In this document: piece by piece, positions 176 through 1,893 of the stretch
How the letters are laid out: each line of letters opens with the position of its first letter
Position numbering within the stretch: position 1 is the first letter of the stretch
Source: a virus
Reading direction: 5' to 3' (one strand)
Virus record (IMG/VR): IMGVR_UViG_3300042924_000569
Location: 1-34,501 of that record
DNA length: 34,501 nucleotides
The notes under the pieces: generated by a model
Seen by the model: the letters and a program-made list of their open reading frames with translations, nothing else
The model's database searches: none
What the model was told of the DNA's origin: nothing
Position numbers and translations under genes: made by a program

Positions 176-188
176 ATATTTTACTAAC
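165..188. promoter_or_regulatory. Operator-like palindrome, copy 1, with possible plus-strand promoter
   Basis: GATAGTA, ten bases, TACTAAC: a member of the four-copy palindrome family also seen at 4053-4076, 4966-4989 and 26121-26144. Here the flanks fit a promoter pointing the other way: on the plus strand TTTG (162-165), 19 nt, TAACTTTT (185-192), one mismatch from consensus. A transcript from it would be antisense to the replication genes at 184-1486. The left edge overlaps the stop codon region of the gene ending at 184. Confidence 0.55.
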
Positions 189-801
189 TTTTTTCCACAT
201 TTTTTTGCATGTAGGTTTTCATGGCATCTCTCATTGAATCTTTGTCTACATCAGTACTCATCCTGTTGCTGTCACCAAATGCCTTGTACTGTGAATTCTG
301 CTCATCTTTAAACCTCATGTATTCCTGGTGTCTTTCATTCCTGTACTGTTCTAGCATCTCAAAGAATGTGGGCATATCCATACGATCATACACTTTGCCA
401 TACTTGAATTTTACCATACCATCCAAAAACAGCATGATGTCCTCAAATGCTAGCTGATCCTCATTTGCACTGTCAATCAGTTGCAGGGATAGTTCTAGCA
501 CCTGGTCAGCATTCATACCCACCCTTAAATTGAAATTGGCTAGTGTTTTTTGGATTGCTTTTGCCAGGATAGCTGATACCTTGTCAATACCATAGGTTTG
601 TACTAAGCCAGGCAGTCTGTCCTTTACTGGGATATTCTCAATCACTTTCATAGGCAGTGGTGATCCTTTCTCTTTCCATCTGCACATTTCATTGTAAACC
701 TGACCTGTACTACCTACCGCCAAAGCGTTTAGCAAATGCCTCGTGTAATTGTTGGTCTGTGATATGGCTAGCTCTTGTTTGTTGTGTTTTTGTAGTTCCA
801 T
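184..801 (-). CDS. Hypothetical protein downstream of the replication initiator (possible replication partner)
   Basis: A 205 aa soluble, helix-rich protein without a signal peptide. It overlaps the end of the replication initiator gene by 92 bp in another frame, so the two are probably translated together. No Walker motif is visible, so it is not an ordinary DnaC-type helicase loader, although its position is where such a loader is often found. The central part (FEDIMLFLDGMVKFKYGKVYDRMDM begins near residue 118; shown only as its key run FKYGKVYDRMDMPTFFEML) resembles a small conserved family of Bacteroidota phages and prophages whose function I do not know. The C-terminal 50 residues are charged and probably coiled. 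ATG at 801 is the only good start. Confidence 0.8.
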   Translation of the reverse strand: MELQKHNKQELAISQTNNYTRHLLNALAVGSTGQVYNEMCRWKEKGSPLPMKVIENIPVKDRLPGLVQTYGIDKVSAILAKAIQKTLANFNLRVGMNADQVLELSLQLIDSANEDQLAFEDIMLFLDGMVKFKYGKVYDRMDMPTFFEMLEQYRNERHQEYMRFKDEQNSQYKAFGDSNRMSTDVDKDSMRDAMKTYMQKNVEKS

Positions 802-1486
802 TGTTTTCAGTTTTTAGTTCAAAAAATCCTTTCCATCCTTTTGCCATTGATTGCTGTATGATCAGGCAGGCATTTTGCTCAATACCATTTGCCAGCTTGA
901 CCAGTTCATTCAAACTGGCTTGCTCAGATCCTGATGACTTGAATTTGAATTTGTGTTCTTTGGCTTTGTAGTCTTTCCATATTTCCCAGTAACTCATGAA
1001 CTGGGCAGATGTGAATGGGTAGGTGATTTCAATTTTTGGCTTTTTCACCTTATCCTTATCCTTATCCATTTCCTTATCCATTACCATATCCTTATCCTTA
1101 TCCATATCCATAGCCCCATTTAAGGGGCTTGCAAGGGGCTTGGACTGGTCAATTTGATTTTTGTATTTTTCCAAAATTTTTATGATTCCTACATGTGCCT
1201 TATTATTTGCACTCAGTCCTGATGGATATTGAAATTCAACAAATGATGGTATATACCATTTTGATCCCCCATCAATAGGAATAACTTTGTCACTAAAAAA
1301 TTCTAGTGCTTTTTGCTCGTTTAATTTTTCGCCTACTCTGATCTGTGCTACATCCATGTCCACCTGCCAAATTCCAGCATAATCACAGTCATCACAGATG
1401 TAAAGCCAAAGCAGCTTGTATGGGGCTTGTAAGCCCCTTATAAAAGGCTTTTTCCATTTTTCAGTATCAGTGAATCTTTTTGCCAT
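710..1486 (-). CDS. Replication initiator-like protein (phage replisome organizer type)
   Basis: A 258 aa protein with two folded parts joined by a charged linker. Residues 1-100 (start MAKRFTDTEKWKKPF, with LLWLYICDDCDYAGIW) look like the winged-helix N-terminal domain of phage replisome organizer proteins. Residues about 128-150 are a low-complexity Met-Asp-Lys linker encoded by a hexamer DNA repeat. The C-terminal part resembles the helical domains of DnaD-like proteins. It probably recognises the origin and recruits the helicase. I chose ATG at 1486 rather than an upstream in-frame codon because translation from 1522 would read through a hairpin followed by a U-tract. The gene lies downstream of the SSB-like and recombination genes, which supports a replication role. 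The family call is from general pattern only. Confidence 0.75.
   Translation of the reverse strand: MAKRFTDTEKWKKPFIRGLQAPYKLLWLYICDDCDYAGIWQVDMDVAQIRVGEKLNEQKALEFFSDKVIPIDGGSKWYIPSFVEFQYPSGLSANNKAHVGIIKILEKYKNQIDQSKPLASPLNGAMDMDKDKDMVMDKEMDKDKDKVKKPKIEITYPFTSAQFMSYWEIWKDYKAKEHKFKFKSSGSEQASLNELVKLANGIEQNACLIIQQSMAKGWKGFFELKTENNGTTKTQQTRASHITDQQLHEAFAKRFGGR
1050..1115. repeat. Hexamer tandem array inside the replication initiator gene (candidate origin iterons)
   Basis: Eleven consecutive 6-bp units: TTATCC occurs exactly at 1050, 1056, 1062, 1074, 1092 and 1098, and variants (ATTTCC, ATTACC, ATATCC twice, ATAGCC) fill the other slots without phase breaks. It encodes the Met-Asp-Lys linker. 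TTATCC is also the core of a DnaA box, but none of the units continues to TTATCCACA. Placement between the two protein domains recalls the origin inside lambda gene O; the function is inferred. Confidence 0.85.
1112..1141. repeat. AGCCCC/GGGGCT inverted repeat plus AAGGGGCTT direct repeat
   Basis: AGCCCC (1112-1117), ATTTAA, GGGGCT (1124-1129) form an inverted repeat. AAGGGGCTT at 1122-1130 is repeated at 1133-1141, 11 bp apart, about one helical turn. The elements directly adjoin the hexamer array. They stand out as GC-rich islands in AT-rich DNA and may be protein-binding sites of an origin. Confidence 0.75.
1422..1437. repeat. GGGGCTT-GT-AAGCCCC inverted repeat
   Basis: A 7-bp perfect inverted repeat with a 2-bp centre near the 5' end of the replication initiator coding sequence. 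It contains the same GGGGCTT element as the repeats at 1112-1141. It may be a binding site, or may simply be coding coincidence. Confidence 0.6.
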
Positions 1487-1500
1487 AATAAAATAAAAAA

Positions 1501-1579
1501 GCCCCAGTGCTGTGGATCGCAAAGGGGCAGGTTTTTAATCACCTAATAAACTCATTTAGATCATCCACTATCTAAATGA
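1501..1579 (-). ncRNA. Replication-gene leader RNA with two hairpins and complementary loops
   Basis: On the minus-strand transcript, bases 1579-1552 form a perfect 10-bp stem with an 8-nt loop AGUGGAUG. Bases 1528-1501 form GCCCC/GGGGC, a UU/CU internal loop, UGC/GCA and an 8-nt loop GAUCCACA. The loop centres GUGGAU and AUCCAC are fully complementary, so the hairpins could form a 6-bp kissing complex. Hairpin 2 is followed by U6 and then AUUUUAUU before the initiator start codon at 1486, so it also has the shape of an intrinsic terminator or attenuator. Predicted by eye only. Confidence 0.6.
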
Positions 1580-1588
1580 ATTGTTTTT

Positions 1589-1619
1589 CAAATATGAATC
1601 AATATTCTGAAACTAAAAA
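1589..1619 (-). promoter_or_regulatory. Candidate promoter of the replication initiator gene
   Basis: The -7 box CATATTTG (1596-1589) matches TANNTTTG at all but the first base and is identical to the box proposed before the methyltransferase. Nineteen nt upstream is TTTT instead of TTTG. If used, transcription would start near 1582, so hairpin 1 (1579-1552) would sit at the very 5' end of the RNA. The weak -33 box keeps confidence low. Confidence 0.35.
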
Positions 1620-1626
1620 ATATTTT

Positions 1627-1893
1627 TTAATCAATATGGCTAGCTTTCCAAAAATTGACAGTCCTACCAGTTTCAAAGTCTTTCCCCCTAAATGCTGTTT
1701 CTATTAGCCCTGCATCCATTAGTTCACCTCGCCTGGGTGTAACCCTATTTATAGGCCAGGATAGATGCTCTGAGATCTGATGATCATTGCAGATACCTAG
1801 ATGCTGGATGGCATACAAAACTCTTTTTTGCTTTTCATTTATGTTAGTCATTGCCTCAAAATAGGCAGGTAAACTTGTTTTAAAATCGTACAT
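1627..1893 (-). CDS. Winged helix-turn-helix protein
   Basis: An 88 aa protein with a MarR-like winged-helix pattern. Residues about 18-60 read as recognition and wing segments (EKQKRVLYAIQHLG, then a helix with DHQISEHLSW, then RRGELMDAGLIE). Such small proteins are common in phage replication regions and act as local transcription or replication regulators, or help replication-complex assembly. It starts one base after the stop codon of the preceding gene (TAA then ATG), so it is translationally coupled. A 140-bp leader with two hairpins follows it. Its DNA target is unknown; the operator palindromes are one possibility. Confidence 0.75.
   Translation of the reverse strand: MYDFKTSLPAYFEAMTNINEKQKRVLYAIQHLGICNDHQISEHLSWPINRVTPRRGELMDAGLIETAFRGKDFETGRTVNFWKASHID

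Follow-up and report, generated by a model that had tools for sequence, protein, structure and literature searches.

A candidate cis-acting kissing-loop leader RNA, probably an attenuator, at the head of phage replication operons

On plasmids, structured leaders control replication initiators, and this control rests on antisense RNAs. In the I-complex plasmids (ColIb-P9, IncB/O/K/Z, and IncL/M), the leader of the repZ or repA mRNA engages in long-range pairing from a hairpin loop; an antisense RNA competes with this pseudoknot pairing, and a leader peptide is translated. pT181 uses countertranscript-driven attenuation, in which a terminator-like hairpin with a U-tract lies between the promoter and the rep start codon, while RNA I and RNA II of ColE1 carry 7-nt loops that are entirely engaged in a kissing helix. 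Work on the I-complex rep leader and on pT181 attenuation is represented among the titles cited in one article (PMC10724649). In phage HK022, putL is an element of ~70 nt located just downstream of its promoter; put elements are characterized by conserved sequence and a triplex, act in antitermination, and are described without kissing loops (PMC9378689). By analogy, the phage leader described here would work in the manner of the pseudoknot- or attenuator-bearing rep leaders of plasmids, yet it is not a member of that group.

The window, i.e., the whole stretch of DNA analyzed, is an IMG/VR virus record of 34,501 bases, and its longer open reading frames (ORFs) lie nearly all on the minus strand. 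The leader is the noncoding stretch between ORFs 1893-1627 and 1486-710 on that strand; its features are listed in Table 1. An initial annotation had placed two hairpins with 8-nt loops in the leader of the initiator gene, at 1501-1579, and had described the central loop bases GUGGAU and AUCCAC as perfect complements and the second hairpin as followed by a U-tract and located 14 nt ahead of the start codon. Both hairpins are present, on the minus strand, and are recovered by RNAfold; the loop complementarity is exact, and the initiator ATG (1486-1484) directly follows the tract. The coordinates required one correction, as hairpin 1 runs 3 nt further, to 1582. The 181-nt leader fold beats 200 of 200 shuffled sequences (z = -4.3), which is a statement about the hairpins. 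A 6-nt loop match, on the other hand, is at chance level in one sequence, with 3 to 12 comparable pairs per 34.5 kb in the window and in Markov sequences of matching composition; the loop match becomes significant only through relatives.

Table 1. Features of the leader and adjoining genes in the window
Feature	Coordinates	Strand	Remarks
Second operon gene, 205 aa, weak DUF6633	184..801	-	Overlaps the initiator 3' end; 70% identical homologue follows the L401 initiator
Replication initiator gene P0001, 258 aa, first behind the leader	710..1486	-	PHROG 678, replication initiation O-like, E = 3e-5 (weak); phrog_18589, E = 1e-6
U-rich tract	1487..1500	-	TTTTTTATTTTATT, 14 nt, from hairpin 2 to the start codon
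Hairpin 2, terminator-like	1501..1528	-	GCCCC..GGGGC outer stem and 3-bp inner stem; order GCCCC-TT-TGC / 8-nt loop GATCCACA / GCA-CT-GGGGC (1528-1501)
Kissing segment 2, ATCCAC, in loop 2	1512..1517	-	Exact complement of segment 1 (1568-1563 versus 1517-1512); covaries in relatives
Linker	1530..1548	-	Conserved UUUAUU element and small GGU/ACC hairpin
Hairpin 1, 13 bp, 8-nt loop	1549..1582	-	Order AATTCATTTAGAT / loop AGTGGATG / ATCTAAATGAGTT (1582-1549); 5' strand ~2 nt past the predicted transcript start
Kissing segment 1, GTGGAT, in loop 1	1563..1568	-	Exact complement of segment 2; covaries in relatives
Probable -7 promoter box	1589..1596	-	CATATTTG; consensus TAnnTTTG, one mismatch; start predicted near 1584, two bases ahead of the hairpin 1 stem
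Gene upstream of the leader, 88 aa, phrog_1123	1627..1893	-	76% identical homologue upstream of the L401 leader

Relatives were obtained by searching IMG/VR with the initiator protein and reading the DNA before the start codons, and a DNA-pattern scan of IMG/VR, blind to proteins, added further leaders. The unit of counting was the distinct 98-nt leader; IMG/VR contigs are redundant and often fragments, and counts are among the matches listed. At least 84 distinct leaders were found on IMG/VR phage contigs, with about 24 loop pairs among the matches listed. All 24 loop types are complementary over 6 to 9 nt, compared to an average of 2.6 nt for mis-assigned loops, and 2,000 permutations reach at most 6 of 24. 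Because selection for the result had to be avoided, leaders found by a sequence regex were counted without a loop criterion; the complement is present in all 61 of these distinct leaders among the matches listed. The loop pairs of relatives include GTCGGAT/ATCCGAC, GTCGCAT/ATGCGAC, GTTGCAG/CTGCAAC, GTAGGAT/ATCCTAC, GTCGTTT/AAACGAC, GTACGAG/CTCGTAC, GTACCAG/CTGGTAC, AGTCCAG/CTGGACT, GAGCGAAC/GTTCGCTC, GTGGCAC/GTGCCAC, AGGGAAG/CTTCCCT, and GGGACG/CGTCCC, among others. The kiss measures 6 bp in the window and 7 bp or more in most relatives. As in ColE1, loops of exactly 7 nt lie wholly inside the kiss in 54 of the 67 leaders with at least 7 kissing bases; however, the ColE1 kiss forms between two RNAs and the present one within a single RNA, for which no primer role is indicated. 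In two leaders (L006 and L009), the loops are swapped relative to those of L007 and L017, with ATGCGAC in loop 1 and GTCGCAT in loop 2, as if pairing alone mattered. The sole case of two leaders in one genome turned out to be a single site reported twice.

Loop changes that preserve complementarity had been suggested at the outset as a check on the kissing pairing, and the relatives supply them, both as the complementary loop pairs above and as two-sided changes within the kissing helix. In the commonest subgroup, group B (25 leaders), 93.7% of the cells of the kissing helix are paired and two-sided changes occur at 7 of 7 pairs; the whole-structure covariation score is 0.56, versus 0.18 for shuffled alignments and at most 0.21 with partners slid, and the lower value of stem 1 in this group is partly due to gap placement in the alignment. 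In group D (13 leaders), 100% of the kissing cells are paired, two-sided changes occur at 5 of 7 pairs, and the whole-structure score is 0.40, versus 0.16 shuffled and at most 0.07 slid. RNAalifold alone found hairpin 2, with 9 of its 11 pairs covarying. Two-sided changes are also seen in relatives in the outer and inner stems of hairpin 2, and the stem of hairpin 1 is altered on both sides in L057 and L142. The linker element, ACUUAUU in the commonest subgroup, is near-invariant among the 25 group B leaders and has a related form in groups A and D. On the window, model R1 of group B scores 22.9 bits (E = 0.21); subgroups A, B, C, and D are regarded as kin because they share an architecture, not because of the R1 score. 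Altogether, a leader structure of two hairpins with paired loops is strongly supported by comparison of the sequences.

The many loop types would also suit a trans-acting copy control or incompatibility system, in which nascent leaders of other genomes are bound through pairing by a terminated leader RNA, or by an antisense RNA, and differing loops keep phages apart. Consistent with such a role, two-sided changes in group D fill 29 of 91 cells in kissing pairs versus 10 of 234 in stems, and L256 and L314 differ at three loop positions in otherwise similar leaders. In group B, by contrast, change is rarer among the kissing pairs than in the inner stem of hairpin 2 (33 of 164 versus 45 of 150 cells), and a released leader would pair with itself. 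Moreover, an antisense TAHHTTTG box (sigma-A type, the promoter type covered by this search) is absent from -95 to +150 in 82 of 83 leaders. We consider trans-acting control improbable. The absence of this box from 82 of 83 leaders also argues against a plasmid-type antisense RNA, which the analogy with plasmid copy-number control in the initial annotation had suggested.

Of 80 leaders, 74 carry a TAnnTT(T/C)G box in the 40 nt ahead of loop 1, compared to 3% of random windows, and the box stands mostly 15 to 18 nt before the loop. In Flavobacterium, the promoter box occupies positions -12 to -5 (PMC9723704; PMC6847099). The predicted start falls no more than 2 nt from the 5' end of the hairpin 1 stem in 63 of 72 leaders. 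The RNA is therefore predicted to have hairpin 1 as its 5' end. A transcript starting downstream of hairpin 1 had been named as evidence that would speak against the kissing leader; the box predicts instead that transcription sets out from the first nucleotides of hairpin 1. The spacing of the box also bears on the idea of a DNA-level element, such as an origin hairpin or an operator, to which we give next to no credence. The leader does adjoin the initiator gene, and the loops also form an inverted repeat in double-stranded DNA; yet the promoter box at a fixed distance puts the hairpins at the 5' end of a transcript, and the U-rich tract and the constant place before the first start codon, even where genes are inserted, fit an RNA leader. 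The promoter type and one Bacteroidia metagenome-assembled genome (MAG) with a related protein point to Bacteroidota as hosts.

Nearly every leader opens an operon with a replication initiator as gene 1 or 2, and these initiators fall into at least seven domain classes among the matches listed. The downstream products match DUF1376/primosomal proteins, DnaD-like proteins, HTH_36, replisome organizer phrog_6251, Lin1244_N, and other replication-initiation PHROGs, and the second gene in some operons, judged by its sequence, reads like a DnaB helicase. Thus, the link to a replication initiator that had been drawn for the window extends across many phages and several initiator classes. The exceptions are HNH, GIY-YIG-like, and DNA methyltransferase (phrog_757) genes behind the leader. 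In most of them, L293 aside, the inserted gene sits between the U-rich tract, which stays with the leader, and a replication gene, whose start it overlaps or abuts (-8, -1, or +1). Such insertions recur at one place (L023, L028, L032, L036, L050, L304, and others), and the stop codon of the inserted gene overlaps or abuts the initiator start, often as ATGGCTAA. In some relatives (L005 and L063 to L081), the initiator has no leader directly in front.

The N-terminal ~124 residues of the initiator are strongly conserved in relatives. A scan for window-type leaders found near-identical leaders, with GTGGAT/ATCCAC loops, before a MAKDPA-type initiator. L401 carries the leader type of the window; its initiator matches that of the window in the C-terminal part (63% identity over 107 residues), with no match in the N-terminal part. 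Compared to window positions 184-1893, L401, L396, L402 to L404, and L406 have the N-terminal part of the initiator swapped as a block behind a near-identical leader. Since this block is exchanged while the C-terminal part and both neighboring genes are kept, a recombination border seems to lie at the start codon. Autogenous control through the N-terminal part of the initiator is disfavored: near-identical leaders precede unrelated N termini, and the leader is retained across the exchange of the presumed DNA-binding part, which speaks against a controlling role for that part. With the leader, both neighbors, and the C-terminal part kept and the N-terminal part exchanged, the element appears to act for the operon and not for a single protein.

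Hairpin 2 of the window has a ΔG of -14.6 kcal/mol and a terminator score d of +32, in a simple score that follows the formula of d'Aubenton Carafa. Among 80 leaders, hairpin 2 and its tract reach d > 0 and nT > 2.9 in 58, compared to 0 of 36 shuffles, while d is 0 or lower in 22 of the 80. Of the 11 positions that precede the first start codon, 10 have U as their most frequent base (84 leaders). A promoter, an RNA folded from its first bases, and a terminator-like hairpin before the start codon most resemble, by analogy, the anatomy of an attenuator with loop-loop tuning. We therefore propose, with a probability of roughly 0.55, that the element is a cis-acting kissing-loop leader that probably serves as an attenuator of the replication operon, the mechanism being one that we infer from the sequences. 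The leader RNA, ~100 nt long, would open the replication-operon transcript at the first bases of hairpin 1, which would fold first. Once the apical part of hairpin 2 exits the polymerase, its loop would pair with loop 1, and a compact kissing complex spanned by the conserved linker would result. The outer stem of hairpin 2 would close right before the U-rich tract, giving an intrinsic terminator just ahead of the start codon; because the terminator would form there, the leader is proposed to attenuate the operon, holding down expression of the initiator and of the genes that follow, and may allow regulation. The kiss would set the speed or stability of terminator hairpin formation and may either favor or oppose terminator closure; attenuation itself, the direction of this effect, and any signal are what we infer. 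Weighing against this reading are the 22 leaders with d of 0 or lower, the initiator relatives with no leader directly in front, and the fact that neither a ligand site nor a leader peptide nor a trans factor was found.

Translational control or protection of the mRNA end would account for several of the same features. Here, the kiss would occlude or organize the site where ribosomes load on the first gene, or it would guard a 5' end that begins inside hairpin 1, and no termination would take place. Hairpin 2 ends 11 to 14 nt from the start codon and thus lies within the ribosome footprint; the predicted transcript start is in the hairpin 1 stem; and translation in Flavobacterium is sensitive to structure (PMC6847099). 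The placement of the inserted genes at -8, -1, or +1 relative to the initiator start counts against the attenuator, since most of them, overlapping or abutting that start, would also pass on a translational effect, control being relayed by translational coupling. Because the inserted genes are placed for such coupling, translation or 5'-end protection stays the main rival, although we rate it as unlikely. It leaves unexplained the retention, directly behind a GC-rich hairpin in all subgroups, of a long U-rich tract that is poor for translation in the phylum. Initiation is favored by A at -3 and -6 in Flavobacterium johnsoniae and by A at -3, -6, -12, and -13 in this phylum (PMC6847099), and A stands at -3 in 7% of the leaders. 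Thus, retention of a tract that makes a poor translation context suggests another role for it.

Against the background of the plasmid systems, the phage element shares with the I-complex rep leaders its place in an initiator mRNA leader, long-range pairing from a hairpin loop, and a proposed part in setting initiator output; long-range loop pairing of the ColIb-P9 type is seen here as a covarying loop-loop helix. The phage leader differs in that no antisense promoter was found (82 of 83 leaders) and no leader peptide is conserved, and in having two full hairpin loops that kiss and a terminator-like hairpin before the start codon. Of the 84 leaders, 13 contain no ATG and the others have no peptide in common, so a leader peptide was rejected as a general feature. 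As in pT181, a hairpin of terminator-like form lies between the promoter and the initiator start codon, but no countertranscript promoter was found in the phage leaders and the loop complement sits in the same RNA.

HK022 putL and putR likewise consist of two cis-acting hairpins, placed at the 5' end of the transcript of a phage operon or close to that end. Processive antitermination of this type, in which the folded nascent RNA binds RNA polymerase so that it passes downstream terminators, would suit an early-type phage operon whose transcript opens with two stem-loops, in the manner of putL. However, put function requires particular residues and a stem I triplex (PMC9378689), whereas here the stems and loops vary freely by compensation as long as pairing holds, no conserved two-hairpin polymerase-binding sequence is seen, and the element ends in a terminator-like hairpin. 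Antitermination by such an element is thus very improbable.

The window and 14 related loci gave no match at the gathering score in Rfam 15, and the weak E-value hits were chance-like. Searches of the leader DNA against the isolated phages and plasmids of INPHARED and PLSDB returned short chance matches or none. By protein, isolated phages and plasmids contain distant relatives only, the best in Pseudanabaena phage Pan5; in this cyanobacterial phage (ON968456.1, 35854-36210), a relative of the initiator N-terminal part (54% identity) adjoins an HNH endonuclease annotation. Bacterial genomes yielded one initiator relative (L217, the Bacteroidia MAG), without the leader. The sequence pattern had no match in 395 genomes of that phylum and model R1 none in 296, a set that contained no positive control genome. 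No description of such a leader was found in the literature searched, in line with the initial annotation, whose author knew of no described example.

Kept paired by matching mutations before at least seven kinds of initiator gene, the leader probably represents a portable element for the control of phage DNA replication. Here, a compact phage leader has its complement built in and is maintained by compensatory change before at least seven initiator domain classes. How such phages meter replication thereby becomes a testable question with an element of ~100 nt, and the leaders provide natural cis kissing complexes with many loop sequences, which are useful for RNA structure work. A bolder version, which we consider improbable, would make the leader a portable module of Bacteroidota phages whose loops also form a recognition code between genomes in one cell, acting in trans as well as in cis. 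If true, this code would amount to copy control or incompatibility for phages without an antisense gene.

Elsewhere in the window, an ERF recombinase-like gene lies farther upstream of the leader (3528-2851). A perfect 7-bp G-rich palindrome, GTGGGGGCAATTTCCCCCAC, occupies positions 2815-2834, inside ORF 2433-2873. A second strong terminator-like hairpin, GGCCTGCTGTTTCTACAGTGGGCT followed by T8, is located at 5043-5020 on the minus strand.
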